A stretch of DNA of 64,000 nucleotides from Devosia subaequoris (GTDB lineage Bacteria > Pseudomonadota > Alphaproteobacteria > Rhizobiales > Devosiaceae), in assembly GCF_014197055.1 (NCBI RefSeq), contig NZ_JACIEW010000003.1, positions 310,001 to 374,000 on the forward strand. The letters are read 5' to 3'. Below are positions 17,360 to 33,883 of this stretch, piece after piece. The number at the start of each line of letters is the position of its first letter. Position 1 is the first letter of the stretch. The notes under the pieces were generated by a model, which did no database searches, had not been told where the DNA came from, and saw nothing but the letters and a program-made list of their open reading frames with translations. The position numbers were made by a program, and so were the translations under genes.

Positions 17360-18412
17360 TCAGGCCTCGATCCGTGCGCCGGTTGACTGGTCGAAGATGT
17401 GGCAGGCCGACGCCGGAATTGCGATCCGCGCCAACTCGCCGATTTCGGCGCGATAGTCCTTGCCGACCTTGATCGAAACCAGCTCTCCGGCCACCCGCAT
17501 CGAGAGCATGGTGGCCTCCCCGAGCAGTTCAACCGTATAGATTGGCGCCTCGATCTGGCCATTGGCCTCGGCCAGGTTGGCATCCTCCGCCCGGAAGCCC
17601 AGCGTGACCGCCCCGCTGGCGCGATGCGGGAGGCCCTCGATGCGGATACCGTCGCTGGTGAAAACGCCGTCCGCGATCATACCATTGACCAGGTTCATTG
17701 CCGGCGAACCGATAAAGCTTGCCACGAACGTATTGGCAGGCTGGTCGTAAATTTCCATCGGCGTACCGACCTGCTGCACTACGCCCTTGTTCATCACCAC
17801 TACACGGTCAGCCAGCGTCATGGCCTCGATCTGGTCGTGGGTCACGTAAACCGTGGTGCGCTTGAGCGTGTGGTGCAGGTTCTTGATCTGGGCGCGCGTC
17901 GAGACACGTAGCTTGGCATCGAGGTTGGAGAGCGGCTCATCCATCAGGAAGGCGTTGGGCTCGCGCACGATGGCACGGGCGAGCGCCACGCGCTGCCGCT
18001 GCCCGCCGGACAGCGCCGCCGGGCGACGCTCGAGGAAGTCGTCCAGTTCCACCATTTTGGACGCGGCCATGACGCGTTCATGGTGTTGCTCCTTGGGCAC
18101 TTTGCGCACCTTCAGGGGGAAGCGGATATTCTCGTAGACCGTCATGTTCGGATAGAGCCCATAGCTCTGGAACACCATCGAGATATCGCGATCCTTGGGC
18201 TCGAGCTTGTTGACCATTTGGTCCCCAATCCAGACTTCACCCTCAGTGATCTCCTCAAGTCCCGCGATCATCCGCATGGTCGTGGTCTTGCCACAGCCCG
18301 AAGGCCCCAGCAAAACCAGAAACTCCTGGTCAGCGATATCGAGATTGAAGTTGTCGACGCCGACGAACTTGCCCCAGCGCTTGGAAACGTTCTTGAGACG
18401 GATCTGGGCCAT
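17360..18412 (-). CDS. CUT1 sugar-type ABC transporter ATPase
   Basis: A 350-residue MalK/UgpC-type ATPase. Walker A is GPSGCGKTTTMR, the signature is LSGGQRQRVALARA, and Walker B is AFLMDEPLSNLD; a C-terminal TOBE/OB regulatory region spans about residues 235-345. Fourth gene of an operon (binding protein, two permeases, ATPase, amidase). The substrate is unknown and is presumably the inducer or precursor of the LacI-controlled pathway. Confidence 0.9.
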   Translation of the reverse strand: MAQIRLKNVSKRWGKFVGVDNFNLDIADQEFLVLLGPSGCGKTTTMRMIAGLEEITEGEVWIGDQMVNKLEPKDRDISMVFQSYGLYPNMTVYENIRFPLKVRKVPKEQHHERVMAASKMVELDDFLERRPAALSGGQRQRVALARAIVREPNAFLMDEPLSNLDAKLRVSTRAQIKNLHHTLKRTTVYVTHDQIEAMTLADRVVVMNKGVVQQVGTPMEIYDQPANTFVASFIGSPAMNLVNGMIADGVFTSDGIRIEGLPHRASGAVTLGFRAEDANLAEANGQIEAPIYTVELLGEATMLSMRVAGELVSIKVGKDYRAEIGELARIAIPASACHIFDQSTGARIEA

Positions 18413-18417
18413 GATTT

Positions 18418-19302
18418 TTATCCCTTGACGGCGCCGGCCGTGAGGCCCGAGACGATCTGGCGTTGGAAGAAGAGGACGAGAATAAACAGCGGCACGGTGG
18501 CCGACACAACGGCAGCAACTGCGAACATCACATTGCCGGTTTCCTGGATCGATCCCAGGAAGCTGGAGATTTTGGGCACCATGGTCTGGTTATCGGCGCT
18601 CAGCAGCATTGCGGTGACCGCAAAGTCATTATAGCCGAGCAGGAAGCTGAACAGCCCGGTCGTCACCACGCCCGGCCACATAACCGGCATGATAACGAGA
18701 CGGAAGGCCTGGAAGCGGGTGCATCCATCCACCATTGCACTTTCGTCCAGGTCTTTTGGGATCGAAAGGAAAAAGGAGTGCAGCATCCAGAGCGTGAAGG
18801 GCTGGTTGATAGCCACAAGCACGATAATCGAGGTGGGCAGCACGCCCCAGATATTGAGCTGGAAGAAGGGAAGCAGATAGCCCGAGACTAGGGTGATATG
18901 AGGCATGGCCCGGAAAACCAGAGCAGCGATCAGGATCCAGAACGCGTAGTTCCTGCCCGAGCGGGCCAGCGCATAACCGCCCAGCGTGCCAAGGGTGAGC
19001 GAAATCGTGGTCACACAGATCGTGACAATGATCGTGTTGAACGCCGCCTTCCAGAAATCCCGGGTGATCCAGGCCCCATAATAGCCGTCCCCCGTAAAGG
19101 CCGCACCGGTCTCCCGGATTGTCGCGGTGCCGAAAATGGCATTCCACCAGCTCTCGCGAGAGAAGAAGTCAGCCTCCACCTTGAACGAGCCCCAAACCGT
19201 CCACAAGAACGGCACGGCCGCCAGGATCAACCAGAGGATGATGAAGCCGTAGATGAAGGTATTGAGCAGAACCGGGCGCTTGTGGGCCATAGCTTCGGAC
19301 AT
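18418..19302 (-). CDS. CUT1 ABC transporter permease (MalG type)
   Basis: A 294-residue inner-membrane permease with about six hydrophobic segments and the EAA loop (DESAMVDGCTRFQAFRLVIMP). The stop codon of the partner permease is only 2 nt upstream; a GTG at 19308 overlapping that stop is an alternative start. Paired with the longer permease at 19305. Confidence 0.88.
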   Translation of the reverse strand: MSEAMAHKRPVLLNTFIYGFIILWLILAAVPFLWTVWGSFKVEADFFSRESWWNAIFGTATIRETGAAFTGDGYYGAWITRDFWKAAFNTIIVTICVTTISLTLGTLGGYALARSGRNYAFWILIAALVFRAMPHITLVSGYLLPFFQLNIWGVLPTSIIVLVAINQPFTLWMLHSFFLSIPKDLDESAMVDGCTRFQAFRLVIMPVMWPGVVTTGLFSFLLGYNDFAVTAMLLSADNQTMVPKISSFLGSIQETGNVMFAVAAVVSATVPLFILVLFFQRQIVSGLTAGAVKG

Positions 19303-19304
19303 GA

Positions 19305-20336
19305 TCACACCGCCTTGTGTTTGAACTCACGCCAGGTGCGCACCAGCACCGGCGAGAGCAGGATGACGACGCCCAGAATGGTCAGTACGGACGTTGCGCC
19401 AGCGGACCCGAATTGCTGAGAATCGCCCGTAAGGTCGTTGTAGATCAGCCAGCTCAACGAGGTCGCATTGGCCTCTGCCGAAAAACCGACAATCGGCTCG
19501 AAGACGCGGAAATTATCCATCAACTGCACCAGCGCCACGAAGGTCGCGAGCGGGGCTAGATGCGGAATGATGACATAGCGAATGCGCTCCCAGCGCGAGG
19601 CGCCGTCGATCATCGCCGATTCCAGCGTATCGCCGGGCACGGTCTGCAGGCCTGCGTAGAAAACCACGAATGAAAACGGCGCGTTGGTCCAGACCCCATA
19701 GGTCAGCAACGCTCCCCAGGTCAGCGCGGGAGAAGCCCGCAGCGACAGGGTCGGATCATTGAAGATGTGTTGGATGGTGGCGCCCAGAATGCCATTGGGA
19801 CTGAGCATCCAGTAAAGGATCAGCGAGCCGATCAGCGGCGTGATGATCATGGGCAGCAGCGAAAAGAAGATAATTGGGCCCTTGGTGACCTTGGGCAGGG
19901 CATTGACTGCCAGCGCAATGGTGAAGCCCAGGGCCATGGCGAGCGGCGTGACGAAGAAGCAATAGACCAGGGTAAAGATCAGCGCCTTGTAGAAAGGCAG
20001 ATTGAGGATCTGCCCCCATTTTTCGCCGAAGCTGCGTTCGCTGGAGAGGATGACACCCAGTTCGGTCGTCGCCAGGTGGGCGCGATTGACATAGGTGCCC
20101 AGGCCATTGAAGCGCCCCAACGGCTGCTCGTCTCGCAATGCCGCGGTTGCCGCCGAGTCCACCCGCAACTCGGTTGAACAGCCACCAAAGGGCTGGCAGT
20201 TCTCGACTTCGACCAGAATCTGCTCATGGCTCACATAGAGCGATTGCACCACCACCGACACGATGGGCAACGCGATAAATAGCACCATGGCGATCAACGA
20301 TGGCAGGATGAAAGCAAAGAATGTCTTGTTCGGCAT
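19305..20336 (-). CDS. CUT1 ABC transporter permease (MalF type)
   Basis: A 343-residue inner-membrane permease. A large non-membrane insertion (about residues 40-120) follows the first hydrophobic segment, and the EAA loop is ESAMIDGASRWERIRYVIIP. The ATG at 20336 follows AGGAGGCAGGCA. A 173-bp gap with a strong hairpin separates it from the binding-protein gene upstream. Confidence 0.88.
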   Translation of the reverse strand: MPNKTFFAFILPSLIAMVLFIALPIVSVVVQSLYVSHEQILVEVENCQPFGGCSTELRVDSAATAALRDEQPLGRFNGLGTYVNRAHLATTELGVILSSERSFGEKWGQILNLPFYKALIFTLVYCFFVTPLAMALGFTIALAVNALPKVTKGPIIFFSLLPMIITPLIGSLILYWMLSPNGILGATIQHIFNDPTLSLRASPALTWGALLTYGVWTNAPFSFVVFYAGLQTVPGDTLESAMIDGASRWERIRYVIIPHLAPLATFVALVQLMDNFRVFEPIVGFSAEANATSLSWLIYNDLTGDSQQFGSAGATSVLTILGVVILLSPVLVRTWREFKHKAV

Positions 20337-20458
20337 TGCCTGCCTCCTCAGAGCGCCCCGCCTGTCGGCAAAGAGAATGGATCGACCCCGCACGAGGCGC
20401 AAAGCCGAATTTTCGGTTCTGCGGATCTCACCGCCGCTCGGACGCTATCGACCCAGTT

Positions 20459-20488
20459 GCCTCCCCCCGCTCACGGGGGGGGGGAGGC
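20459..20488 (-). terminator. G/C hairpin after binding-protein gene
   Basis: Ten-pair perfect stem GCCTCCCCCC / GGGGGGAGGC with a loop that extends a run of ten G. No T tract. It lies between the binding-protein stop and the first permease start. Confidence 0.6.
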
Positions 20489-20509
20489 ACAGCTTATCCA
20501 GGGGAGGAC

Positions 20510-21748
20510 TTACTGGAGGAAACCGGCCTCACGGGCGGCGGTCTCATAGGCAGCCTTGACGTCGGCAAGGGCCTGATCGGCATCTTCCGAACCCGCCACG
20601 AACTCGGCCAGTTCGGTCGAGAGCGCGGTGTGCAGCAGACCCATATAGGGTTGCATCGGATAAGCGCGGGCACCAGCATTGGCATTGGCGATCACGCCGA
20701 CCGCCGCCGGGCCGGGCTCATAGCCAGCGATCAACCAGGTCGCGATATCCTTGTTGGCCTCCATCATGTCCGGGCTGATGCCATGCACCATGGCGCGGAA
20801 GGACGCTTCGGCATCTTCATCGGAAATGTTCTTGGCGATAGTGAAGCCATCCCACCACAGAGCCGCCGCCGGGATTGATCCGCCGCCGATTGTCGGAGCG
20901 GCGGCCAGCACCGTGTTCTCGACAACCCCGTCGACAGCACCTTCGTCATCGAGAATGGCGCCGCCCAGCGATCCCCATTCATTCATGATGGCGACGTTGC
21001 CCGCTTCGTATTCTTTCTGGATTTCGGTAGCGTCATAGGTGAGATAGTCCGGGTCCATGAACGCCGTCATCTCGCGCATGACGCGCAGCACTTCCAGACC
21101 ATTCTCATTGTCGATGGTCAGTTCCGCACTGCCTGGCGCAAAGAATTCACCACCCGTCCCAAGATAGGAATTGACGAATTCGGCAGCCAGGTCCCAGCCG
21201 GGCTTGACCGAGGCTGCAAGCGGATATTCCATCAGACCCGCTTCCTTGATGGCCGCGGCGGCAGCCAGCACTTCGTCATAGCTGGTCGGCGGTTCTACGC
21301 CGGCTTCCTCCAGAATATCCTTGCGATAGAACATGTGCTGACCATTGCCCATAAAGGCGATTGCCATGATCTTGCCGTCGATCTTGACCAACTGGCTGGG
21401 TTGCAGGTTCTGGCCATATTCGGCCACCAGATCGTCAAGGGGGCGGATCAGGCCTTCATTGAGCAGCGGCACGATGGAATTGTTGGCGACCACGGCCACC
21501 GAGTATTCGGCGGGATTGATCGTCAGCGCCGGCACCTGAATTTCCTTGTGCTCGGCAGTCGCATTAGCCGTCACGGTCACTGCATCGGACGCGCATTCCT
21601 GCGCCGTCGCATTGATGGTCCGCAGCGCTTCGAAATCATTGCTCAGAATGCGCACAGATCCGGCCTCAACACCGCAATCGGCGAAGGCACTGCCCGCTCC
21701 CAGGGCCAAGGCAGCCGCCGAGACGGCGAGCATAACAATGGGCTTCAT
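20510..21748 (-). CDS. CUT1 ABC transporter solute-binding protein
   Basis: A 412-residue extracellular family 1 binding protein. A signal peptide (MKPIVMLAVSAAALALGAGS, cleavage near AFA-DC) is followed by a two-lobed sugar-binding fold. The ATG at 21748 follows AGGAGAACTAAT. Two LacI-type operators lie 89-128 bp upstream, so this promoter is the most heavily operator-loaded in the block. Substrate class is probably a saccharide, polyol or glycoside; I cannot be more specific. Confidence 0.9.
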   Translation of the reverse strand: MKPIVMLAVSAAALALGAGSAFADCGVEAGSVRILSNDFEALRTINATAQECASDAVTVTANATAEHKEIQVPALTINPAEYSVAVVANNSIVPLLNEGLIRPLDDLVAEYGQNLQPSQLVKIDGKIMAIAFMGNGQHMFYRKDILEEAGVEPPTSYDEVLAAAAAIKEAGLMEYPLAASVKPGWDLAAEFVNSYLGTGGEFFAPGSAELTIDNENGLEVLRVMREMTAFMDPDYLTYDATEIQKEYEAGNVAIMNEWGSLGGAILDDEGAVDGVVENTVLAAAPTIGGGSIPAAALWWDGFTIAKNISDEDAEASFRAMVHGISPDMMEANKDIATWLIAGYEPGPAAVGVIANANAGARAYPMQPYMGLLHTALSTELAEFVAGSEDADQALADVKAAYETAAREAGFLQ

Positions 21749-21836
21749 ATTAGTTCTCCTGACTTTGGGCGCTTCCGCACCCACCCTCTGGGCAGCACCG
21801 CTGGCGGCACCACGCTCAATGTGACGTTCCAACCCT

Positions 21837-21852
21837 CCGCATACGTATGCAG
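21837..21852. promoter_or_regulatory. LacI-family operator, copy 4
   Basis: CCGCATACGTATGCAG; twelve central bases GCATACGTATGC are perfectly palindromic. Lies 24 bp from copy 5, centre to centre. Confidence 0.65.
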
Positions 21853-21860
21853 CTAATGTT

Positions 21861-21876
21861 TTGCATTCGTATGCAA
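21861..21876. promoter_or_regulatory. LacI-family operator, copy 5
   Basis: TTGCATTCGTATGCAA, identical to the copy before the bicupin gene. Confidence 0.75.
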
Positions 21877-22047
21877 AACACAACTAAGCACATCATTTCG
21901 ACCGACGCAACGGTTTCCGTGGCGCGCGATTTCTTCCTGCGGGTGACTTCGCCTTGGCCGCATGATGTCCATGATGCGGCGGAACAGGGGGATCAGAGCG
22001 GTGGCCAGCCCCTGGGTCGCCAGGACTCAGACGGATCGATAGGCTGT

Positions 22048-22662
22048 TCAACCTTCATGTTTTTCGAGGAACGCCTCGATGCCTAGATTGCGAAAATCCG
22101 GCAATGCCTGGCGCAGCCGTTCGTGATCCCAATCCCACCAGGCCAGCGCGTCGAGCCGGCTGGCGACATCATCACTGAAGCGCTGCCGAATGGTCCGCGC
22201 CGGCACCCCGACCGCGATGGCAAAATCGGCGACATCCTTGGTGACCACGGCATTGGCCCCGACAATGGCACCATTTCCAATTTTAACGCCCGGCATGATC
22301 ACCGCACCATGGCCGATCCAGGTATCGTGCCCGATATGGATGTCATTGCCCGAACGCCACTCAAAGAACGCGGCATCGTCGCTCTCACCTTCGAAATACT
22401 GGGCCGATCGATAGGTGAAATGGTGTAGCGAGGCGCGTTCCATGGGATGCATGGAGGCATAGATACGCACATGCGCCGCGATATTGGAAAATTTGCCAAT
22501 CGTGGAGTAGGCGATTTGGGTACCCCCGACGCAATAGGAATAGTCCCCCATGCTGGAATAGGCGACATGGCAATGCGCGCCAATTTCGGTGTATCTCCCC
22601 AAGGTCGACTGGTTCACCCTCGCCGTCTCATGAACAAGGGGCACTTCGCTCAGCCTTTTCAT
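22048..22662 (-). CDS. Phosphonate-cluster hexapeptide-repeat acetyltransferase
   Basis: A 204-residue left-handed beta-helix protein with hexapeptide repeats (IGHDTWIGHGAVIMPGVKIG, then GAIVGANAVVTKDV), resembling chloramphenicol-acetyltransferase-like enzymes found in phn clusters (phn_thr-fam type). The catalytic-type His is in the loop SMHPMERAS. It starts 11 nt after phnN with GAGGACACAGGAT upstream. It may acetylate aminoalkylphosphonates before breakdown or detoxify them; this role is inferred from gene neighbourhood. Last gene of the leftward phosphonate operon. Confidence 0.82.
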   Translation of the reverse strand: MKRLSEVPLVHETARVNQSTLGRYTEIGAHCHVAYSSMGDYSYCVGGTQIAYSTIGKFSNIAAHVRIYASMHPMERASLHHFTYRSAQYFEGESDDAAFFEWRSGNDIHIGHDTWIGHGAVIMPGVKIGNGAIVGANAVVTKDVADFAIAVGVPARTIRQRFSDDVASRLDALAWWDWDHERLRQALPDFRNLGIEAFLEKHEG

Positions 22663-22673
22663 ATCCTGTGTCC

Positions 22674-23225
22674 TCAGGCCGGCTGCCGGAGCAAATCACG
22701 TAACAGCGAAACGAAGCGCTCCCCCGCCTCGTCCAACACGCCGGAATTGTCGATCTGCACCGTACTGGGCGGCAGCGTGAAACCGGCGCCTCGCTCCATG
22801 CGGCGGCGGATTTCTTCGCTGTCCTCACGCCCGCGCCCCGCCAGACGTCGGGCGATGATGTCCGGTGCGGCCGTCACTTCAACAACCAGAGCCGTCGGGT
22901 AGCGCGCCAGCACGCGCGGCAAGGCCGCTCGCGAGAGATTGGCGATGACCACGCGGCCCGCGGTCAGGTCGTCATCAAGCGTTATCGGCAGCCCGTATCG
23001 CAGGCCATGCGCCTCCCAGCTCAACGCAAATTCGCCCCGCCGCTCGGCGGCCGCAAACGCATCGGGCGTCATGCTGTCGTGATCTTCGCTGCCATCATCG
23101 GCAGCACGTGTCACCACGCGGCGCACAACGGCCACCTGATCGGCCAGATAATCGCGGGCGAAATTGATCAGGCTATCCTTGCCGACGCCGCTTGCGCCGA
23201 CAACCGCAACGAAGACCCCGCTCAT
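22674..23225 (-). CDS. phnN: Ribose 1,5-bisphosphate phosphokinase
   Basis: A 183-residue kinase of the guanylate-kinase-like fold, matching E. coli PhnN in length. The P-loop is GASGVGKDS (residues 9-17). PhnN converts ribose 1,5-bisphosphate, formed after C-P lyase and PhnP, to PRPP. The ATG overlaps the stop of the truncated phnM by 4 nt (ATGA), which fixes the start. It appears intact and thus presumably still used, although no phnP is in the window. Confidence 0.9.
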   Translation of the reverse strand: MSGVFVAVVGASGVGKDSLINFARDYLADQVAVVRRVVTRAADDGSEDHDSMTPDAFAAAERRGEFALSWEAHGLRYGLPITLDDDLTAGRVVIANLSRAALPRVLARYPTALVVEVTAAPDIIARRLAGRGREDSEEIRRRMERGAGFTLPPSTVQIDNSGVLDEAGERFVSLLRDLLRQPA

Positions 23226-23602
23226 GACACCCGCCTGCCCTGACGCCACATCGTACGCACGATCGGCACGCCGTCGAGCCGATGCTGCATCAGGTCCACC
23301 CGCTTGCCCAGCGCAATTTCGCCGCGATCAGCAGGACCCACCGCCTCGGCCGGGCGCCGCGTCACAAGTCCTTTCGCATCAGGCACACTTTTACCCTCCA
23401 CTGTATCGACCAGACAGCATGCCGATTGCAGCATAGCGAACGGAATATAGTCGGACGAGACAATATCGAGCAGTCCTGCTGTGGCCAGCGCCCGCCGCGG
23501 TGATGACGCACCGGCCATCTCGACGCCCCCCTCCATCACCTGATCAGCCCGCACGATACGGGCATTGGTCAGAATGGTCTGGTCAAGTCTGATGGCAGGC
23601 AT
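23222..23602 (-). pseudogene. phnM: Internally deleted phnM remnant
   Basis: A 126-codon open frame whose first 20 or so residues (TNARIVRADQVMEGGV) match the N-terminus of PhnM and whose residues about 26-126 match its C-terminus (ASSPRRALATAGLLDIVSSD, then PAEAVGPADRGEIALGKRVD and TMWRQGRRVS). The central 250 or so residues with the metal-binding amidohydrolase barrel are gone, without breaking the frame. It keeps a good ribosome-binding site (AAGGAGACGACC), a PhnF-type operator upstream and coupling to phnN, so it may survive as a translated leader for phnN. It cannot be an active PhnM. The intact paralog is at 29046. Confidence 0.8.
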
Positions 23603-23664
23603 GGTCGTCTCCTTGGCTCTTCCCCTACTCAGGCTCTGTGACAGACAAACGACAACCGACAATG

Positions 23665-23676
23665 ACATTCGAATGT
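23665..23676. promoter_or_regulatory. PhnF-type operator, leftward promoter
   Basis: ACATTCGAATGT, perfect 12-bp palindrome upstream of the phnM-remnant/phnN/acetyltransferase operon. Confidence 0.75.
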
Positions 23677-23744
23677 GTCGACGTCGCACTGTCGCAGGAA
23701 AGCGCTATCGTCATTTCAATGTCACTTTCGCTCGCTAGACCCAT

Positions 23745-23766: not shown

Positions 23767-24522
23767 ATGCGCAGTCAAGGACATTCCTGGGAAGAGACTC
23801 GGGACAGGATCAGCCAAGAGATAACCACCGGGCGGCTGGCGGCAGATTCAAAGCTGCCTTCGGAACCGGAGCTTTGCGTGCTTTACGGCGTCCGCCGCCA
23901 TTCCCTACGCAAGGCCCTGGCGGCCCTGGTAGCGGAAGGCAAGCTGCGGGTCGAGCACGGCCGTGGCACCTTTGTCGAACGCGCACCCCTGCTCAACTAC
24001 GTCATCGGCACGCGCACCCGCTTCCGTGAAAATCTCATGGCGCAGGGTCTGACGGCCTCGGGCGAAACGCTGTCCGAGATGAAGATTCCGGCGAGCGAGC
24101 GAGTCGCCGGGGCGCTCGGAATCGACAAGGACGCACCGGTTTTTGCCCGCTCCTGGCGCGGCTTTGCCAATGATCTGCCGATCAGCATGGGCTGGGCTTA
24201 TCACGACGCGACACGCTTCCCCGACCTGCAGGAGCGTCGCCACCATACGCCTTCGATCACCGAGGTTTATCGCTCCTACGGCATCACCGACTATCACCGC
24301 CAGCGCACGACCGTCTTCACCCGCATCGCCACCGAGCACGAGGCCGGCATGCTCATGTTGCGTCCCGGCCAGTCCGTCCTGGTGGTGCAGAAAATCGACG
24401 CCGATCTCGACCGCAACCCCATCGGTTTCTCTGAAGCCGTGTGGGCCGGCGACCGCGTCCAGTTCACCTTCGAAACCAATCAACCAACCGTCATGTCCAC
24501 CGAGAACGATTCCCATGTTTAG
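23767..24522 (+). CDS. phnF: GntR/HutC-type regulator of phosphonate genes
   Basis: A 251-residue regulator with an N-terminal winged helix (about residues 8-72: ITTGRLAADSKLPSEPELC, then VRRHSLRKALAALVAEG) and a C-terminal UTRA ligand-binding domain (residues about 95-240). It heads phnFGHIJKLM and matches PhnF by domain order and position. Three palindromes centred on ATTCGAAT at the phosphonate promoters are its likely targets. The end overlaps phnG by 8 nt. Confidence 0.9.
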   Translation: MRSQGHSWEETRDRISQEITTGRLAADSKLPSEPELCVLYGVRRHSLRKALAALVAEGKLRVEHGRGTFVERAPLLNYVIGTRTRFRENLMAQGLTASGETLSEMKIPASERVAGALGIDKDAPVFARSWRGFANDLPISMGWAYHDATRFPDLQERRHHTPSITEVYRSYGITDYHRQRTTVFTRIATEHEAGMLMLRPGQSVLVVQKIDADLDRNPIGFSEAVWAGDRVQFTFETNQPTVMSTENDSHV

Positions 24523-24958
24523 CGAAACCCCGGCCGCTGGCCCCGGTCACGGCGAGATGCTCGACATTCTCGCCCGAGCCCGCCCCGATCGCCTCAAGCA
24601 GCACGCTGAAACCCTGCTGTCCGCGATGGGCGAGATCAGTGTCATCGCCAACCGCACCGGCCTGGTCATGGTGCCCATGCGCGACACGGTCAAGTACGTC
24701 GACTTCCACCTCGGCGAAGTGCTGGTGAGCGAAGCCCACATTGCCGACGCCGCCGGACATGTCGGCTATGGCATGGTCACCGGCCGCGACCTGGAGCGAG
24801 CCATGGCCATGGCGGTAATCGACCTCAGCGTCGCCGCACGCGGCCAGGACGATGCCACGACCAGCTTTCTCGAACAGGAACGATCTCATCTCGCCGCCGT
24901 CGACGAAGAACGCATGCGTCAGGTCGAGGCCACCCGCGTTGAAATGGAGACTTTCTGA
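24515..24958 (+). CDS. phnG: C-P lyase core complex subunit PhnG
   Basis: A 147-residue protein matching PhnG in length and in motifs (RTGLVMVPMRDTV, FHLGEVLVSEAHI, GYGMVTGRDLERA). PhnG forms the GHIJ core with PhnH, I and J and, with PhnI, L and M, transfers the phosphonate onto ribose from a nucleotide. The start is the ATG inside the end of phnF; the stop overlaps the phnH start by 1 nt (TGATG). Confidence 0.92.
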   Translation: MFSETPAAGPGHGEMLDILARARPDRLKQHAETLLSAMGEISVIANRTGLVMVPMRDTVKYVDFHLGEVLVSEAHIADAAGHVGYGMVTGRDLERAMAMAVIDLSVAARGQDDATTSFLEQERSHLAAVDEERMRQVEATRVEMETF

Positions 24959-25494
24959 TGCTGACTGTGGCCCTTCCCGATGCCGTGGAACTGCGCTCGA
25001 ACGCCACCTTTGAGGCGCTGATGTGGGCCCTGTCGCGCCCCGGCGATATCCGCACCTTGCCAGAGGCCGGCTTCGACGCCATTGCCGAAACCCTGGTCGA
25101 TCTCGAATGCAGCGCCTATGCCGATACGCCCGCCATGCGTGAGCGCATCGTGGCGAGCGGCGCGCTGCTGGTTGACCGGATCGGCGCCGCCGACCATGTG
25201 TTCCTCACCTCAATCGACAATGCCGGCCAGCAATTGGCCGAGATCAATTGCGGCACCGCGCTTTACCCCGATGACGGCGCGACCATGATCGTTGCCGCCG
25301 CTCACGGCGGGCCGCGCGTTCGCCTGACCGGCCCCGGCATCGAGGACACGACAGAGATTGCCCTAGGCGTGCCCCCCCGTTTCTGGGCCATGCGGGAGAT
25401 GCTCTGTCTTTATCCCGAAGGCTTCGACATTTTCTTCATCGATGGCGACAAGGTCATCGGCCTTCCGCGCTCGACTAAGGTGGAGGTGCTCTAG
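24958..25494 (+). CDS. phnH: C-P lyase core complex subunit PhnH
   Basis: A 178-residue PhnH (E. coli about 194). Recognisable blocks are FEALMWALSRPGDIRTLPE, GPRVRLTGPGIE and GFDIFFIDGDKVIGLPRSTK. PhnH is a structural subunit of the core complex. The stop codon is followed immediately by the phnI ATG. Confidence 0.92.
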   Translation: MLTVALPDAVELRSNATFEALMWALSRPGDIRTLPEAGFDAIAETLVDLECSAYADTPAMRERIVASGALLVDRIGAADHVFLTSIDNAGQQLAEINCGTALYPDDGATMIVAAAHGGPRVRLTGPGIEDTTEIALGVPPRFWAMREMLCLYPEGFDIFFIDGDKVIGLPRSTKVEVL

Positions 25495-26589
25495 ATGGCC
25501 TATGTTGCAACCCGCGGTGGCGAAAAGGCCATCGAACAGGCCGAACGGTTGTTCCGCCAAGACCTCGGCACGATCGATGCACAGCGCGTCGAAGCCATTC
25601 GCACCACCATGCCCTATCTGATCGACCGGGTGATGGGCGAAGCTTCGCTCTATGACGACCAACTCGCTGCCTTGGCTCTGGCCCAGACTGGTGGGGAACT
25701 TTCCGAAGCCGTGCTGGTGCTGCGGGCCTGGCGCACCACCCAGCCGCGCCTCGCCATCGCCCGCCCCGTCAGGCAGGACGAAGTCCTGACCCAGCGCCGC
25801 ATCTCGGCCGCCTTCAAGGACATTCCCGGTGGCCAGATCCTGGGACCGACGCTGGATTACTCCCACCGCGTGCTGGCAACCGACGTGCTCGAAGGCAAGC
25901 CGTTCACGCCGCCTGAAGTGGACAAAGCAGCGAGCCCCGCACCTGCCAGGCAGCCCTCACTGGCCGACTGGCAGCGCCAACAAGGGCTGGTCGCGCCGAC
26001 CGAGCCGTCAAATGTTACACCTGAAGACATTCCCGATCTGACGCGCGAACCCCTGCTCTTTCCAGCCTCGCGCGCCCATCGCCTGCAAAGCCTGGCCCGC
26101 GCCGAAACCGGCGGCGTCCTGGCCCTCGGCTATTCGGCCATGCGCGGCTATGGCAATGCCCACCCCACGGTCAACGAACTGCGCCTGGGTGAAGCCAATG
26201 TCGTGGTCCGCCATCCACGCGGCACCGAGTTCTCTGCCGGACGCGTGCGCGTCAGCCAGGCTGAAGTCACAGCAAAGGAGAAGGGCGGCTATCTCGAACT
26301 CGGCTTTGCCGCCACTTTCGGCTGGAACGAGGTCAAGGTCATCGCCGCGGCCACGCTCGATCTCAACTCCGATGACGCCCCCGTCGGCTCGCCGGTGCAT
26401 GAGGAATTCTACCTCTATCACACCGAAAGCGTGGAGGCCTCGGGCTTCTGTATTCACTTCAAACTTCCGCACTACGTCACGTTCCAGTCGATCCTGGACG
26501 CCATGCGAGACGCCAAAGTCAAAAGGGCCGCAGCAGAGGCAGCTGGCGAAGTCTATCTCGGCGAACCCGAAGAGGAGCCCGTCTTATGA
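25495..26589 (+). CDS. phnI: C-P lyase core complex subunit PhnI
   Basis: A 364-residue PhnI. Conserved blocks are RGGEKAIEQAERLF, KDIPGGQILGPTLDYSHR and, near the C-terminus, HFKLPHYVTFQ, in which both histidines corresponding to the zinc-binding His328/His333 pair of E. coli PhnI are kept. PhnI acts as nucleosidase and scaffold. A Pro/Ala-rich linker lies near residues 140-175. It overlaps phnJ by 4 nt. Nothing suggests decay, which matters for interpreting the unusual PhnJ. Confidence 0.92.
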   Translation: MAYVATRGGEKAIEQAERLFRQDLGTIDAQRVEAIRTTMPYLIDRVMGEASLYDDQLAALALAQTGGELSEAVLVLRAWRTTQPRLAIARPVRQDEVLTQRRISAAFKDIPGGQILGPTLDYSHRVLATDVLEGKPFTPPEVDKAASPAPARQPSLADWQRQQGLVAPTEPSNVTPEDIPDLTREPLLFPASRAHRLQSLARAETGGVLALGYSAMRGYGNAHPTVNELRLGEANVVVRHPRGTEFSAGRVRVSQAEVTAKEKGGYLELGFAATFGWNEVKVIAAATLDLNSDDAPVGSPVHEEFYLYHTESVEASGFCIHFKLPHYVTFQSILDAMRDAKVKRAAAEAAGEVYLGEPEEEPVL

Positions 26590-27500
26590 GCCTTGCAAGC
26601 CTGACCAAAGACTGGGCCGCCACTAGCTACGGCTTCCTCGACGCCTCGGCCAAGCGCGAACTGCGCCGCAAGATGCTCAAGGCCATCGCCGTGCCGGGTT
26701 GCCAGATGCCCTATGCCAGTCGAGAAGTGCCGATGGCCCGTGGTTGGGGCACGGGCGGCCTGCAGGTGACGCTGACCCTGGTCAATTCGGCCTCGGTCGT
26801 CAAAGTCATCGATCAGGGCGCAGATGACGGTGTCAACGCCGCCTCGATCCGCCGCTTCATTTCCCGCGTTTCCGGCGCGGCGGAAACTTGGGACACCTTG
26901 GACGCGACCATCGTGCAGTCCCGCCACCGCATCCCCGAAGAAATCATGCGCGAGGATCAGGTGCTGGTACTCCAGGTCCCCAACCCCGAACCGCTGCGCG
27001 GTGTGGAACCCAACATCTCCATCGCCCGGCAGATGCATGCCGATGCCGATTACGGCAAGCTGTGGCTGACGCTTTACGAGCAGATCGTGCGCAAGGGCCG
27101 CATCATGCAGGGCGCATCCTATCCCGCGATGGTCAATGGACGCCATGTGATGACGCCTTCGCCCATCCCCCGCTGGGACGTGCCCAAGCTCAATATGGCC
27201 AAACATCTGACCTTTCTTTCGGCCGGCCGCGAAAAGCGTCTGCATGCCGTGCCGCCCTATACACGCGTCGAACCACTCGTGTTTTCCGATCGTGCTTACC
27301 AGGTGGAAGACCATGCCGACCTGACCTGCCGCCGGTCTGGCGTTCAGGGCTTCTTCATGAACGAACTGCCCCAGGACGGCGGCGGCTCGGTGTTCGAAGT
27401 GTCCGATAGCAATCTGGGCATCAAGGCTATCGACAAGGCCGACGGCAATACGACCGAAATCGGCGAAACCTGGTATCGCAATGGGGAGTATTCGGCATGA
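26586..27500 (+). CDS. phnJ: PhnJ variant lacking iron-sulfur cysteines
   Basis: A 304-residue protein that follows classical PhnJ closely through residue 235 or so (KAIAVPG, YASREVPM, GWGTGGLQVT, KVIDQGADD, SRHRIPEE, SPIPRWD, GREKRLHAVPPYTRVE), including the radical-site glycine (Gly38, equivalent to E. coli Gly32). The radical-SAM region, however, is rewritten. The CxxC...C of E. coli (Cys241, Cys244, Cys266) reads CRRSG at 248-252 and FEVSD at 270-274, so only the first cysteine remains, and the Cys272 equivalent is Gly. There is also a C-terminal tail of about 26 residues. The frame is clean and coupled to phnI and phnK, so this looks like a selected variant rather than a pseudogene. A [4Fe-4S] cluster held as in classical PhnJ seems impossible; the chemistry may be different. 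Confidence 0.9.
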   Translation: MSLASLTKDWAATSYGFLDASAKRELRRKMLKAIAVPGCQMPYASREVPMARGWGTGGLQVTLTLVNSASVVKVIDQGADDGVNAASIRRFISRVSGAAETWDTLDATIVQSRHRIPEEIMREDQVLVLQVPNPEPLRGVEPNISIARQMHADADYGKLWLTLYEQIVRKGRIMQGASYPAMVNGRHVMTPSPIPRWDVPKLNMAKHLTFLSAGREKRLHAVPPYTRVEPLVFSDRAYQVEDHADLTCRRSGVQGFFMNELPQDGGGSVFEVSDSNLGIKAIDKADGNTTEIGETWYRNGEYSA

Positions 27501-28327: not shown

Positions 28328-29059
28328 ATGACGACCACGCCCCTATTGCGCGTTCAGGGTCTCACCAAGACCTTCCGCATGTATCACCTCGACAGCATGC
28401 TGCATGCCTTCGAAGACATCAGCTTTGATCTGTATAAAGGTGAGTTTCTGCTGCTGCGCGGCCACAACGGCGCCGGCAAGTCAACGCTGCTACGCACCAT
28501 CTGGCGCAGCTACCTGCCGGTTGGCGGTCAGGTGCTCTATGCATTGAGCCATGGCGAGATTGATTTGGCCAATGCCGCCGATGTCGATATCGCCCTGCTG
28601 CGCCGCGAAGAAATCGGCTTCGTGACCCAGTTCCTCAACGCAAGACCGCGCGTGGCCGCCCAGGATATTGTCGCCGAACCACTGCGTCTGGCTGGTGCCA
28701 CCCAGGCCGAGGCGCTCGATCAGGCCCGTCACTGGCTCGACCAGTTCGGCGTGCGTCCCGAACTCTGGCGCGCTTATCCGAGCACCTTCTCGGGCGGTGA
28801 ACAGCAAAAGGTCAATCTGGCCCGCGCCCTGATCCTGCCACAGCGCCTGCTGTTGCTCGACGAGCCCACCGCTTCCCTCGATGTCGGCGCCCGCGCCGCG
28901 CTCGTGCGACGCCTGGCTGATCTCAAAGCCCACGGCGTCGCCATCATTGGCGTGTTCCACCATCCTGGTGACGTGGCCGAATTGATCGACCGCGAAATCA
29001 ACCTCAACACCAGGGTCCTTGCCGACCAAAACGCCGAGGAAGACCATGTGGCTGTCTGA
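28328..29059 (+). CDS. phnL: C-P lyase-associated ATP-binding protein PhnL
   Basis: A 243-residue ABC-type ATPase: Walker [13 protein letters not shown], signature FSGGEQQKVNLARA, Walker B LLLLDEPTASLD, switch His in VFHHPGD. PhnL binds the core complex with PhnK. GAGGTGATCCC precedes the ATG. The 3' end overlaps phnM by 14 nt. Confidence 0.92.
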   Translation: MTTTPLLRVQGLTKTFRMYHLDSMLHAFEDISFDLYKGEFLLLRGHNGAGKSTLLRTIWRSYLPVGGQVLYALSHGEIDLANAADVDIALLRREEIGFVTQFLNARPRVAAQDIVAEPLRLAGATQAEALDQARHWLDQFGVRPELWRAYPSTFSGGEQQKVNLARALILPQRLLLLDEPTASLDVGARAALVRRLADLKAHGVAIIGVFHHPGDVAELIDREINLNTRVLADQNAEEDHVAV

Positions 29060-30245
29060 CTTTCAAATTGTTCTTGCGGATCGTGTCATCGATCGCGGCG
29101 CCTTGCGCATCCAGGACGGGCTGATTGCCGAGATCAGCGAAACCCCAATTGCCGATGCCGATATCGAAGGCAACGGCCTGCTCTTGCTACCCGGCATGAT
29201 CGACATGCATGACGATATGATCGAGCGCGAAATCGAGCCGCGCCCGGGCGTGCGCATGCCCATCGATATGGGGCTGCGCGATCTCGACATGAAGCTGGCC
29301 ACCGCCGGCATCACCACCGCCTATGCCTCTCTCTCCTTTGCGCCCGGCTCCACCTATGGCCACATGCGCTCCTACGACTTCACCAGCGCCCTGATCCGCG
29401 CCGTCGTCGCGGCACGCCCCAATCTGCTGATCGACCATCGCGTGCATGCGCGCTTCGAGGTGACCTTTCCGGCGGCCCTTTCAGTGGTCAAGGAACTGGT
29501 CAGCGAAGGCGCGGTGGATCTGGTTTCCCTCTGCGACCACACTCCCGGCCAGGGTCAGTATCGCGACCTCGACCTGCAGGCGACCAATATGTCGAGGAAC
29601 AAGGGCATTTCGCTTGAAGCGGCCATGGAACAGCTTCAGCAGCGCATTCGCGACCGCAAGGAAACCGCCGGCGACATGACCGAAACGCTGCGCGCCATTA
29701 CCCAATATTGCACCATGCACGGCGTGCCCGTGGCCAGCCACGACGACGACACGGTCGAGAAGGTCACCCTGATGGACCAACTCGGCGCCAATATTTCCGA
29801 GTTTCCGGTGACCCTGGAAGCCGCCGAGGAAGCGCATCGCCGCGGCATGCTCAATGCCATGGGCGCACCCAATGCCCTGCGCGGTCAATCCTATTCGGGC
29901 AATCTCTCGGCCCGCAATGCGCACGCTGCCGGCGTGCTCGATTTGCTCGCTGCCGACTACCACCCCTCGGCCATGCTACCCGCACTGCTGGTATTGGCCG
30001 AAACCGATCCCGATGGTCTGGCTGGCGCCGCCCGCCTCACCTCGCTTAATCCCGCCCGCGCCCTGGGCCTCGAAGATCGCGGCGAAATCCGCATCGGACT
30101 CCGTGCTGATCTGGCTGTCGCGTCCCGCACCGGTGTGGGCCAGGTACACGCCACATTCTCGTGCGGCCGCGTCGTGCATGCCGATGGCACTCTCGACACC
30201 CATAGGACCAGCAGGCGTCACGAGCATGTCATTCGAATGAGTTAA
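29046..30245 (+). CDS. phnM: PhnM, alpha-D-ribose 1-methylphosphonate 5-triphosphate diphosphatase type
   Basis: A 399-residue amidohydrolase-superfamily protein. Metal-site blocks are MIDMHDDMIEREIEPRPGV, DHRVHARFEVT, SLCDHTPGQGQY, ASHDDDT and DYHPSAMLPA. PhnM normally removes pyrophosphate from the 5-triphosphate to give the substrate of PhnJ. The start at 29046 follows GAGGAAGACC and lies inside phnL; the open extension to 29019 has no ribosome-binding site. It differs clearly from the gutted paralog at 23222 (for example DYHPSAML against SSDYIPFAML), so the two are separate lineages. A PhnF-type operator is embedded in its last codons. Confidence 0.9.
   Translation: MWLSDFQIVLADRVIDRGALRIQDGLIAEISETPIADADIEGNGLLLLPGMIDMHDDMIEREIEPRPGVRMPIDMGLRDLDMKLATAGITTAYASLSFAPGSTYGHMRSYDFTSALIRAVVAARPNLLIDHRVHARFEVTFPAALSVVKELVSEGAVDLVSLCDHTPGQGQYRDLDLQATNMSRNKGISLEAAMEQLQQRIRDRKETAGDMTETLRAITQYCTMHGVPVASHDDDTVEKVTLMDQLGANISEFPVTLEAAEEAHRRGMLNAMGAPNALRGQSYSGNLSARNAHAAGVLDLLAADYHPSAMLPALLVLAETDPDGLAGAARLTSLNPARALGLEDRGEIRIGLRADLAVASRTGVGQVHATFSCGRVVHADGTLDTHRTSRRHEHVIRMS
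30229..30240. promoter_or_regulatory. PhnF-type operator, phnC promoter
   Basis: TCATTCGAATGA, perfect palindrome overlapping the 3' end of phnM and 59 bp upstream of the phnC start, so the transporter operon is probably co-regulated from its own promoter. Confidence 0.75.
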
Positions 30246-30299: not shown

Positions 30300-31127
30300 A
30301 TGCTGGAACTGAGAAACGTCACCAAGCGCTTCGGTGACACGATTGCGGTCAACAATGTCTCGACCAATTTCGAACCCGGACAGATGGTCGGCGTCATTGG
30401 GCGCTCCGGTGCCGGCAAATCCACCTTGTTGCGATTGATCAATCGTCTGGCAACAGCCGATGAAGGTCGGATCACTTCCGGCGATATTGACGTCCGCAAC
30501 CTGAGCGGCACGCAATTGCGCGCCTGGCGCGCCCGCTGCGCCATGATTTTCCAGCAGTTCAATCTGGTTAATCGGCTCGATGTGCTGACCAATGTACTGA
30601 TCGGCCGGATCGGCAATGCCGGCACCATGCCCGTGCTGTTCAAGCATTTTTCGGCTGCCGACAGGGCCAATGCGGCCATGGCGCTTGACCGCCTCGACCT
30701 GCTCTCCCAGGCGTTGCAACGCGCCGACACGCTTTCGGGCGGCCAGCAGCAGCGTGTGGCCATCGCCCGCGCCCTGATGCAGAAGCCAAGCATTATTCTC
30801 GCCGACGAGCCGATCGCTTCGCTCGATCCGCGCAATGCGCGCCTCGTGATGGAGGCGCTGCGCACCATCAACCAGCAGGACAAAATTACCGTCATCACCA
30901 ATCTGCACACGCTGGATGCCGCGCGCGCCTATTGCGACCGCATCATCGGCATGGCCCATGGCCATGTCGTGTTCGACGGCACGCCCGATATGCTGACCAG
31001 CTCGATGATCCAGCAGATCTATGGTGATGAACACGAAACAGCCGTGGACGAGAGCCTGACCTCGACCATTGCTGCGACCGGTGCGGCAAGCCAAACCGGC
31101 AAACGACACCTGGAGGCGGCGCACTAG
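30300..31127 (+). CDS. phnC: Phosphonate ABC transporter ATPase
   Basis: A 275-residue ATPase: Walker [13 protein letters not shown], signature [14 protein letters not shown], Walker [24 protein letters not shown] precedes the ATG. It drives uptake through PhnE with PhnD as periplasmic receptor. The C-terminal 25 residues ([18 protein letters not shown]) are a low-complexity extension. Confidence 0.92.
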
Positions 31128-31160
31128 CTGCCCATCTTCCCCGAACTCGGAGCTACACAA

Positions 31161-32081
31161 ATGCTTACCCTGACGCGCCGTGGCCTTGTGGCCGCGCTGG
31201 TTTCGCTCGCCCTGGTTTCCCCTGCCTTCAGCCAGGACTGGCGCGAGGAATATCCCGAACTGACCATCGGCATCTCGTCGAGCGAGAACGAAACCGACGC
31301 CATCGCCCGCAATCAGCCCTATGCCGACTATCTCAGCCGCGAACTGGGCGTGCCGGTCAACATTGTGCGCGGCACCGACTATGCCGCCGTGATTGAAGCC
31401 ATGCGCTCGGGTCACGTGCAGGTCGCCTCGGTCGGCCCGGCCGCCTATGCCCTGGCGCGCAAGATCATGGGCGAGGACATCGCGCCTGTAGCCGTAACGC
31501 TCGATAACGAAGGCAACCTTGGCTACCACTCGATCCTGGCCGTGCGCGCCGACAGCGACTATCAGTCGATCGAAGACGTCAAAGGTGCCTCCTTCGCTTT
31601 CGCCGACCCCAATTCCACTTCGGGCTATGCCGTTCCCTCCTATTATCTCGCCACAGAGCTGAACACTTCGGCCAGTGACTACTTCAGCGAAGTCGCCTTC
31701 TCCGGCGGTCACCAGCAGAGCGTCATGGCCCTGGTCAACGGGACCTTCGATGTTGTCGCCACCCATTGGCGCAACGAAGAGGCCGGCAATATCCAGACCA
31801 TGGAAAATAACGGCCTGATCGAAAAGGGTTTGACCCGTATCATTTGGAAGTCCCCGGTCATTCCAAACACGCCCGTCATGATGCTCACCACCCTGCCCCA
31901 GGCGCTGCAGGACGAATTCAGGACCGTCCTCATGGCCTTCCCCGAAAAGGATCCCGAAGGTTTCGCCGAATACACCCGCGGCACCTCCAGCGGCTATGTC
32001 GCGGCAACGCATGACGACTATCTCGATGTTGTGGCGATCACCGAGTTCAACGCCGAACAGCGCCGCAAGAACGGCAACTGA
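31161..32081 (+). CDS. phnD: Phosphonate-binding periplasmic protein
   Basis: A 306-residue PhnD/phosphate-phosphite-phosphonate binding protein. A signal peptide spans residues 1-24 (SLALVSPAFS-QD). Typical blocks are YADYLSRELGVPV, GTDYAAVIEAMRSG, FADPNSTSGY and VAFSGGHQQSVMAL. GGAG lies 9 nt before the ATG. A strong hairpin follows the stop, as after the other binding-protein genes here. Confidence 0.92.
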   Translation: MLTLTRRGLVAALVSLALVSPAFSQDWREEYPELTIGISSSENETDAIARNQPYADYLSRELGVPVNIVRGTDYAAVIEAMRSGHVQVASVGPAAYALARKIMGEDIAPVAVTLDNEGNLGYHSILAVRADSDYQSIEDVKGASFAFADPNSTSGYAVPSYYLATELNTSASDYFSEVAFSGGHQQSVMALVNGTFDVVATHWRNEEAGNIQTMENNGLIEKGLTRIIWKSPVIPNTPVMMLTTLPQALQDEFRTVLMAFPEKDPEGFAEYTRGTSSGYVAATHDDYLDVVAITEFNAEQRRKNGN

Positions 32082-32090
32082 TCCCTTCCT

Positions 32091-32124
32091 GGCCGGTGCG
32101 CATCCCGCGCATCGGCCTCTTTTC
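32091..32124 (+). terminator. Intercistronic hairpin after phnD
   Basis: Eleven-pair stem GGCCGGTGCGC / GCGCATCGGCC (one G-U pair), loop ATCCC, followed by TCTTTTCT. Likely a partial terminator or stabiliser that lowers phnE relative to phnD. Confidence 0.7.
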
Positions 32125-32137
32125 TCGTGAGGCGCGC

Positions 32138-33049
32138 GTGTCCACACTCTCCCCAACCAATGGCCGGTTGACCTCGACGACGCGGGAAGAACGATTGCTC
32201 TCGTTTGACGAGCGCTATCGCCAGCAGCAATTCACTCGCCGCAACTGGACCCTGCTCTATGGGGCGTTGTTCCTGGCGGCGCTGGTCGGGTCGGTAACCG
32301 TCAGCGATTTTTCCATTCCGGGTCTCATCAAGGGCCTGCCCATGGCCTGGAACTACATCCTGGGCACATTCCCCACACTGACGCTGGAGAATTTCTGGGC
32401 CGACCTCGCCAACTGGTACTGGGGCCTGCGCTTCTGGCTGCGCCTGCTGGTCGAAACCATCCTTATGGGGTTTGTCGGCACCGTGATGGGTGGCGTCATT
32501 GCCCTTGCCCTGAGCTTTCCCGCATCGCGCAACCTGGTTGAGAATACCGGCACCTATTTTGCCGCGCGCCGCACACTCGAATTCTTCCGCACCGTGCCCG
32601 AACTGGTCTTTGCGCTGATCTTCGTCTTCGCCTTTGGGCTCGGTCCCTTTGCCGGCGTGCTGGCCATTGCGGTTCACACTGCGGGCGCACTTGGCAAGTT
32701 GTTCGCCGAGGTCAACGAGAACGTCGACCCACGCCCCATCGAGGGCGTCCGTGCGTCCGGCGGCAACTGGTCCATGATCATGCGCCTTGGCGTCGTGCCC
32801 CAGGCCCTGCCCAACTATGCCAGCTATTTGCTCCTGCGTTTCGAGATCAATGTGCGCGGGGCCTCGGCATTGGGCCTTGTCGGCGCAGGCGGCATTGGCC
32901 AGGACCTCTACGTCGCCATCCGCCAGTTCGAATACACCGACATCTCGGCAATCATGTTGCTGTTGATCCTCACGACCTCGGTCATCGACATCACCTGCGA
33001 AGCCATCCGCCATCGCCTGATTGGCCACACCCTGACACAGGTTGCCTGA
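32138..33049 (+). CDS. phnE: Phosphonate ABC transporter permease 1 (GTG start)
   Basis: A 303-residue inner-membrane permease. After a charged N-terminal 45 residues come about six hydrophobic segments and the PhnE/EAA block (FGLGPFAGVLAIAVHTAG, then ENVDPRPIEGVRASGG). The GTG at 32138 has GAGG 6 nt upstream; an earlier GTG at 32096 lies inside the hairpin and has no ribosome-binding site. Partner of the second permease, as usual in rhizobial phnE1/phnE2 pairs. Confidence 0.88.
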   Translation: MSTLSPTNGRLTSTTREERLLSFDERYRQQQFTRRNWTLLYGALFLAALVGSVTVSDFSIPGLIKGLPMAWNYILGTFPTLTLENFWADLANWYWGLRFWLRLLVETILMGFVGTVMGGVIALALSFPASRNLVENTGTYFAARRTLEFFRTVPELVFALIFVFAFGLGPFAGVLAIAVHTAGALGKLFAEVNENVDPRPIEGVRASGGNWSMIMRLGVVPQALPNYASYLLLRFEINVRGASALGLVGAGGIGQDLYVAIRQFEYTDISAIMLLLILTTSVIDITCEAIRHRLIGHTLTQVA

Positions 33050-33052
33050 CCC

Positions 33053-33883
33053 ATGAATGCCACGCTGACCGCCGACATCGCCCGCTTCAGGCGCACCAAT
33101 CCCCAGATCTTCACCCGCCCCCTGCATGAGCGCCTGCGCACATGGGGCCTGTGGCTAGCCTTTTTGGCTATTCTCGCCTTCGGCCTGTGGTGGATCGATG
33201 CCTCGCCGATGCGCATCGTCAATGGCCTCAACAAGCTCGGGCTGTTGGTCACCCTGATGATCCCACCTTGGCCGGGCGATGGTCTATGGGACTACACCTA
33301 TGCCATGTTCGAAACCCTCGCCATGGCGTTTCTGGGCACGTTGATCGCCTTTGTCGTGGCCCTGCCACTTGGATTTCTCGGCGCCAAGAACATCGCCCCC
33401 AACTGGCTGTTCCATTTCGGACTCCGTCGCTTCTTCGACGCCTTTAGGGGCATCGACGGTCTGGTCTGGGCGCTAATCTTCGTTTCCGCTGTTGGCCTCG
33501 GGCCCTTTGCCGGCGTGCTGGCAATTGCCGTGGGCGACGTCATGGTCTTCGGCAAGCTTTTCGCTGAAGCCATCGAAAACGTCGACAACAAGCCGGTGGA
33601 CGGCGTCCGGGCCTCCGGCGGCGACAACATCCATGTCGTTCGGCTCGGCGTCTTCCCTCAAGTGTTCCCGGTAATGATGAGCCACGTGCTCTATTTCTTC
33701 GAATCCAATGTCCGCTCGGCCACCATCCTGGGCATTGTCGGAGCCGGCGGAATTGGATTGCAATTGTCCGACCGCATCCGCATCAACAACTGGCAGGAAG
33801 CCGCCTTCATCATCCTGATGATCCTGGTGACTGTGGCGATTATCGACGCGATCTCCCGCCGCATTCGCGCCCGGCTGATTTAG
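33053..33883 (+). CDS. phnE: Phosphonate ABC transporter permease 2
   Basis: A 276-residue permease homologous to the preceding gene (VGLGPFAGVLAIAVGDV, then ENVDNKPVDGVRASGG), about six hydrophobic segments. Starts 3 nt after the phnE1 stop. The two permeases probably form a heterodimeric channel. Last gene of the rightward phosphonate region; convergent with the iron transporter. Confidence 0.9.
   Translation: MNATLTADIARFRRTNPQIFTRPLHERLRTWGLWLAFLAILAFGLWWIDASPMRIVNGLNKLGLLVTLMIPPWPGDGLWDYTYAMFETLAMAFLGTLIAFVVALPLGFLGAKNIAPNWLFHFGLRRFFDAFRGIDGLVWALIFVSAVGLGPFAGVLAIAVGDVMVFGKLFAEAIENVDNKPVDGVRASGGDNIHVVRLGVFPQVFPVMMSHVLYFFESNVRSATILGIVGAGGIGLQLSDRIRINNWQEAAFIILMILVTVAIIDAISRRIRARLI

Follow-up and report, generated by a model that had tools for sequence, protein, structure and literature searches.

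The 64,000-nucleotide stretch of the Devosia subaequoris genome considered here (the window; contig NZ_JACIEW010000003.1, positions 310,001 to 374,000) contains an operon for a carbon-phosphorus (C-P) lyase whose PhnJ subunit has the sequence of its family while lacking most of the cysteines associated with its radical chemistry. On the plus strand the genes run in the order phnF-G-H-I-J-K-L-M-C-D-E-E, with phnN and a hexapeptide acyltransferase gene divergent from them; phnGHIJKLM share one direction and PhnM has its conserved His/Asp residues, as expected of a C-P lyase operon. The phnJ product, whose frame, coordinates and length are those given in a preliminary description of this DNA, is 48% identical to E. 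coli PhnJ (Protein Data Bank (PDB) entries 4xb6/7z15; E = 2.9e-80) and scores 377 bits against PF06007, for which the curated cut-off is 25.

Alignment to the solved E. coli chains equates C241 with C248, the only one of the four cysteines to be kept, C244 with S251, C266 with V272 and C272 with G278, bearing out the replacements that the preliminary description had read by eye. The CxxC-x21-C ligands of the [4Fe-4S] cluster that mark a radical S-adenosylmethionine (SAM) PhnJ, which we take to be EC 4.7.1.1, consequently read C-x-x-S and V. Gly is found at the place of C272, described in passages of PMC11978286 as the radical-relay cysteine of E. coli PhnJ. Gly38, equivalent to the radical-site Gly32 of E. 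coli, is present. Judged by its sequence, the protein lies inside PhnJ as a family and outside it by the defining radical-SAM features tested. A PF06007 profile search of the genome (99.98% complete) recovered it as the single PhnJ.

Table 1. Features of the phn region, with positions in the window
Feature	Position	Strand	Support
Hexapeptide acyltransferase of phosphonate loci	22048..22662	-	TIGR03308 above cut-off
phnN, ribose 1,5-bisphosphokinase, divergent	22674..23249	-	TIGR02322 above cut-off
Classical-type phnM remnant, 155 codons; N and C ends only, middle missing	23222..23689	-	
phnF regulator, first gene of the operon	23767..24522	+	
phnG; C-terminal tail ...VEMETF vs classical ...VDFFTMVRGD	24515..24958	+	
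phnH	24958..25494	+	TIGR03292 above cut-off
phnI; zinc histidines H321 and H326, and H223, kept	25495..26589	+	
phnI codons C319-I320-H321; main-branch cysteine two residues ahead of zinc ligand	26449..26457	+	
phnJ variant, 304 aa; three of four iron-sulfur (Fe-S) cysteines lost	26586..27500	+	PF06007, E = 4.9e-113
phnJ codons C248-R-R-S251, place of E. coli C241-x-x-C244	27327..27338	+	Alignment to E. coli PhnJ
phnJ codon V272, place of E. coli C266	27399..27401	+	Alignment to E. coli PhnJ
phnJ codon G278, place of E. coli C272 (radical-relay cysteine)	27417..27419	+	Alignment to E. coli PhnJ
phnK with conserved Walker B, Q-loop and H-switch residues	27497..28318	+	
phnL; catalytic Glu kept, E. 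coli Arg82 replaced by Val	28328..29059	+	
phnM of variant operon, from first ATG; in-frame TTG also at 29019	29046..30245	+	
phnC, phnD, phnE, phnE importer	30300..33883	+	

A family of PhnJ proteins lacking the cluster cysteines

Variant sequences were gathered from two protein searches (the best 120 each, with upwards of 7600 relatives scored), from a single reference-genome scan (its 80 best loci), and from Devosiaceae regions; they were separated from classical PhnJ by identity, independently of the cysteines. With identical rows removed and lengths confined to 270-360 residues, 272 distinct variants could be compared with 61 classical sequences, E. coli included. Not one of the 272 has two or more of the four cluster cysteines, whereas all 61 classical proteins have all four, so the loss is neither chance nor error. 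The second place is occupied by Ser or Thr in 270 variants, and the third by an aliphatic residue (Val, Leu or Ile), also in 270; the fourth, that of Cys272, is mostly Gly or Ala (237). Every variant shares the E. coli ligand residues (Arg107, His108, Gln124 and the loop 47-50) unchanged. The C-terminus is longer, and the C-terminal domain, its fold kept, has near-invariant new residues including E241, P262, E271, K280 and Y297; among columns 99% conserved in the variants, P262 alone is absent from the whole classical set. The pattern identifies the variants, at the level of sequence, as a C-P lyase branch in which no more than one of the four cluster cysteines survives.

Complete phnGHIJKLM sets accompany variant PhnJ in 23 of 28 reference loci, and three of the other five end at contig edges. 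The dN/dS values of the variants (0.02-0.11) indicate purifying selection, in keeping with the earlier expectation, drawn from the clean and translationally coupled frame, that the gene is maintained. Neither a classical PhnJ elsewhere in the genome nor relaxed selection, the findings named beforehand as fatal to a C-P-lyase-like complex without the classical ligands, was encountered. A decaying gene, frameshift or assembly error has nothing in its favour; given these values and the same loss in 272 distinct sequences, its probability is practically negligible.

In a 128-row tree from which the C-terminal cysteine region was left out, a branch with an SH-aLRT value of 97 separates the variants from the other rows. 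When five further variants (two from Thermus) and a classical Haloarcula sequence were added, the variant branch received 88 and the variants minus Thermus 96; these are quick, unrooted trees made without bootstrap. If the root lies within or next to the classical rows, Thermus PhnJ is indicated to split off first among the variants. The Thermus operons lie on plasmid pVV8 of Thermus thermophilus HB8 (L140, 7010-12439) and on a plasmid of strain SNM1-1. The pVV8 PhnJ is 63% identical to that of the window over 261 residues and reads C-R-R-T, V and M where the cysteines would be; taking both loci together, the pattern is C-R-R-T, then V or I, then M. Both have the variant type of PhnG tail, but in their PhnI Asp318 is retained and Ala stands where the main branch has Cys319.

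The variants occur in Hyphomicrobiales, Rhodobacterales, Anaerolineae and Thermus thermophilus HB8 (pVV8), so that the mention in the preliminary description of cysteine-poor forms in other alphaproteobacteria was right as to that group but too narrow. Within the window's family, PhnJ is found in 79 of 136 genomes and the variant (at least 75% identity) in 28, two of them (G058, G067) with contig-end fragments, that of G067 ending before the cysteine region. A classical PhnJ (45-50% identity) is also present in 20 of the 28; the remaining eight, including the 78% complete G058, have the variant alone. Of 385 genomes sampled across the class, 65 have PhnJ and two of these, the window's own included, have the variant; no PhnJ identity in this sample falls between 51 and 79%. 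Among the 24 genomes behind the loci of other groups (completeness not given), 16 have both types and eight the variant alone, the latter including six metagenome-assembled genomes (MAGs) placed outside Proteobacteria by title or sequence kinship (four titled Anaerolineae, one Bacteroidetes and one bacterium). Plasmid records yielded PhnJ matches in 215 cases, 13 at 60% or more, with three more Thermus records at 58%; the five of these 16 in which residues were inspected are all of the variant type. In one Rhodobacteraceae MAG (L078, 3-8761) a second phn operon, classical-like in type, comes after the variant PhnJ-K-L.

This distribution bears on an explanation which we regard as unlikely, namely that the variant complex only makes or binds ribosyl phosphonate, with the C-P bond cut by a classical complex or by an oxygenase or hydrolase encoded elsewhere. 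It would accommodate the classical PhnJ that accompanies the variant in 36 of the 52 pooled variant-bearing genomes (in G529 as two pieces on two contigs), as well as the phosphonatase gene phnX downstream of the operon in two of the six non-proteobacterial MAG loci, but would have to account for the 16 genomes in which classical PhnJ is absent, seven of them Devosiaceae at least 94% complete. It is further opposed by the arrangement in four variant-only Devosia relatives (G024, G029, G042, G041), which have a phnM-phnN half of classical type in divergent orientation to the variant operon, as though the variant had displaced the classical core.

The divergent block in these four genomes, and in G010, comprises classical-type phnM, phnN, acyltransferase and phnC-D. 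In four of the nine classical Devosiaceae loci taken (L127, L128, L129, L134), phnM-phnN adjoins the phnF-GHIJKL core, and no second GHIJKL core was seen near the variant operon in the variant-only Devosiaceae relatives. At the place of the window's phnM remnant the four relatives show a full-length match. G078 has phnN and the acyltransferase with no classical-type phnM there, and in G017 phnN lies about 10 kb off; G058 was not part of this comparison. From these arrangements we infer that in the window genome the variant operon probably took over from a classical one. Beyond phnN and the acyltransferase, the window has a carbohydrate-type ABC transporter (17360-21883, minus strand) where several relatives have a second phnC-D-E; its permease is weakly UgpA-like and its binding protein has no NCBIfam match at 1e-10.

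Conserved and altered residues in the other subunits

The remaining subunits retain the machinery expected of a PhnGHIJKL complex. PhnI was compared in 159 variants (120 from the protein search and 39 loci, L078 being left out because its PhnI is part of the neighbouring classical-like operon), all of which keep His219, His328 and His333 (E. coli numbering); the first of these, H223 in the window, adds to the zinc histidines whose conservation had been noted earlier. The equivalents of the catalytic ATPase residues PhnK D170, E171 and H204 and PhnL E175 are kept, as are the conserved His/Asp of PhnM in the variants. The window's PhnK and PhnL fall below the cut-offs of TIGR02323 (230.7 bits against 302.85) and TIGR02324 (221.7 against 256.3), yet these models are the best matches of the two proteins.

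Alongside this conservation are changes that the preliminary description overlooked. The PhnG tail has Met-Glu in 38 of 38 variants in place of the classical Phe-Phe (41/41 and 38/41), and according to passages of PMC9947105 this tail of E. coli PhnG reaches into the zinc site of the open state. PhnL Arg82, described there as fully conserved, is present in 46 of the 57 classical proteins, and in the variants is almost always Val (38 of 39). Main-branch PhnI has 84 invariant columns out of 364; at five of them (L74, W159, W277, E311 and C319) the residue is absent from the 61 classical sequences, and two of the five lie no more than ten residues ahead of the first zinc histidine. Cys319, two residues ahead of that histidine, is present in 159 of 159 (classical, 0/61), and E311 replaces D318.

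These last two changes could be taken to favour oxidative cleavage, in which a remodelled Cys-His-His site in PhnI would bind iron and use oxygen, like PhnZ, a protein of different fold. We consider this highly improbable: Thermus PhnI has neither change, the predicted PhnI model does not resolve the site, and Anaerolineae MAGs may represent anaerobes.

A slightly less improbable alternative keeps the radical chemistry, either with a cluster held by one cysteine and non-cysteine ligands or with a separate protein bringing the radical to Gly38. The C-terminal fold of PhnJ is indeed kept, Gly38 is conserved in 271 of 272 variants (with one gap), and one cysteine remains in 242; but at that first place 29 variants have Asp and one Ser, and Cys272 is absent from all. 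Moreover PhnH, a paralogue without the C-terminal cysteine domain, has Gly at the presumed matching place in 38 of 38 variants and 53 of 56 classical proteins, the place being deduced from where the structural match begins and from the sequence of E. coli PhnH. Since PhnH keeps this Gly without the cysteine domain, Gly38 is no evidence for a radical, which weakens its earlier use as a radical-site sign. Nor does any unassigned gene family recur in more than four of 29 clustered loci, although the open frames used were filtered by base composition and most carry no assignment, which leaves room for a distant radical-SAM partner. The neighbouring residue 39 is mostly either Cys (148 of the 272 variants) or Tyr (122) and is not a fixed feature.

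A possible polar route to phosphorus release

Because the ribosyl-ligand and zinc residues are conserved, the metal site is kept and the radical site lost, across a wide group and under selection. We therefore tentatively favour a separate branch of C-P lyases which lacks the PhnJ Fe-S ligands and may well free phosphorus by polar, non-radical chemistry. With somewhat more reserve, it can be proposed as a second C-P lyase class, found in Deinococcota, Chloroflexota and Proteobacteria, acting on ribosylated substrates at a zinc site with no Fe-S cluster, SAM or radical, oxygen-tolerant and methane-free, and counted today as methane-forming PhnJ. According to passages of PMC9947105, the cluster site of E. 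coli C-P lyase lies about 30 Å from the radical glycine, itself 31 Å from the zinc ion holding the ribosyl ligand, and a radical mechanism is not reconciled with the structure; the E. coli active-site residues used here are from the same source.

In the polar route, PhnI with PhnG, PhnH and PhnL would join the phosphonate to the ribose moiety of ATP or GTP, and PhnM would then trim the triphosphate. At the zinc site between PhnI (H321, H326) and PhnJ (R113, H114, Q130), the ribose 2'-OH could attack phosphorus and expel the organic group. The product would be the 1,2-cyclic phosphate that the classical enzyme also makes, from which a cyclic phosphodiesterase and PhnN would lead to phosphoribosyl pyrophosphate (PRPP). 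The C-terminal domain of PhnJ is probably retained as a scaffold, and Cys319 of PhnI may tune the metal site in the main branch. A stabilised leaving group would be required, on an activated phosphonate or with P-O or P-N replacing P-C, and methylphosphonate should therefore yield no methane. A phosphonatase (TIGR01422) and a TIGR03364 FAD oxidoreductase follow the variant operon in two of the six MAG loci (L053, 12277-14247, titled Anaerolineae; L056, 10201-12933, titled Bacteroidetes), which fits phosphonate substrates. Some loci have DUF1045 with phnN, an SpdA-like protein or TIGR00282 phosphoesterases nearby, all that were scored falling below the cut-offs of their models; such neighbours would fit a cyclic phosphate product, but most loci do not have them.

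Several observations weigh against this route. The C-P bond resists hydrolysis (in passages of PMC9947105), so polar cleavage needs a special substrate, and the data name none. A phnN or phnP match beside the operon is absent from most variant loci and the DUF1045 and PhnN genes of Devosia are present with or without PhnJ, so that support for the cyclic product is weak. Both Thermus loci have Ala in place of Cys319, which is hence neither essential everywhere nor tied to cluster loss; the PhnI model, with pLDDT below 50 at residues 319-328, gives no firm position for it with respect to zinc. Most variants still have Gly38 and one of the cysteines, and two of the 28 reference loci (L051, L052) have no phnM match although the DNA continues. 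In G000 (C6, 178045-180241), DUF1045 lies beside a second PhnN-like gene, and 74 of 75 genomes of the genus have DUF1045, whether or not they have PhnJ.

Comparison with known systems

The titles, abstract beginnings and passages of the open-access literature searched contain no report of a PhnJ without the cluster cysteines. phnJ serves as a C-P lyase marker in surveys (passages of PMC6852614, PMC8316502 and PMC9381506), and in those of PMC11978286, from 2025, PhnJ is treated as the key enzyme for methane from methylphosphonate and the four cysteines are checked as its conserved features. As the variant scores as PhnJ with PF06007 and is so named in public records, it could inflate estimates of C-P lyase and methane; if the polar route is true, variant PhnJ would release no methane. 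A check of the four cysteine columns separates the two types. With the zinc site kept and the cluster site deleted, the role of the former becomes testable alone, and Thermus thermophilus HB8 offers a ready laboratory system and source of heat-stable variant proteins.

The closest known system is the classical C-P lyase complex. With E. coli PhnGHIJKLM (PDB 4xb6, 7z15-7z19) the variant shares the core subunits, the PhnJ and PhnI folds, the zinc histidines, the ribosyl-ligand and ABC ATPase residues and the conserved His/Asp of PhnM; it differs in a PhnJ without the four-cysteine site and with a longer C-terminus bearing new near-invariant residues, in the replaced PhnG tail, in Arg82 to Val in PhnL, and in Cys319 and Glu311 of main-branch PhnI. 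The classical operon of the same Devosiaceae genomes has the same core genes and partly shared phnM-phnN-acyltransferase-phnCDE neighbours, whereas its PhnJ is only 45-50% identical (20 genomes with both), those taken having four cysteines. The pVV8 cluster shares with the window the variant PhnJ type and variant-like PhnG tail, but its PhnI has Asp318 and Ala where that of the window has Glu311 and Cys319.
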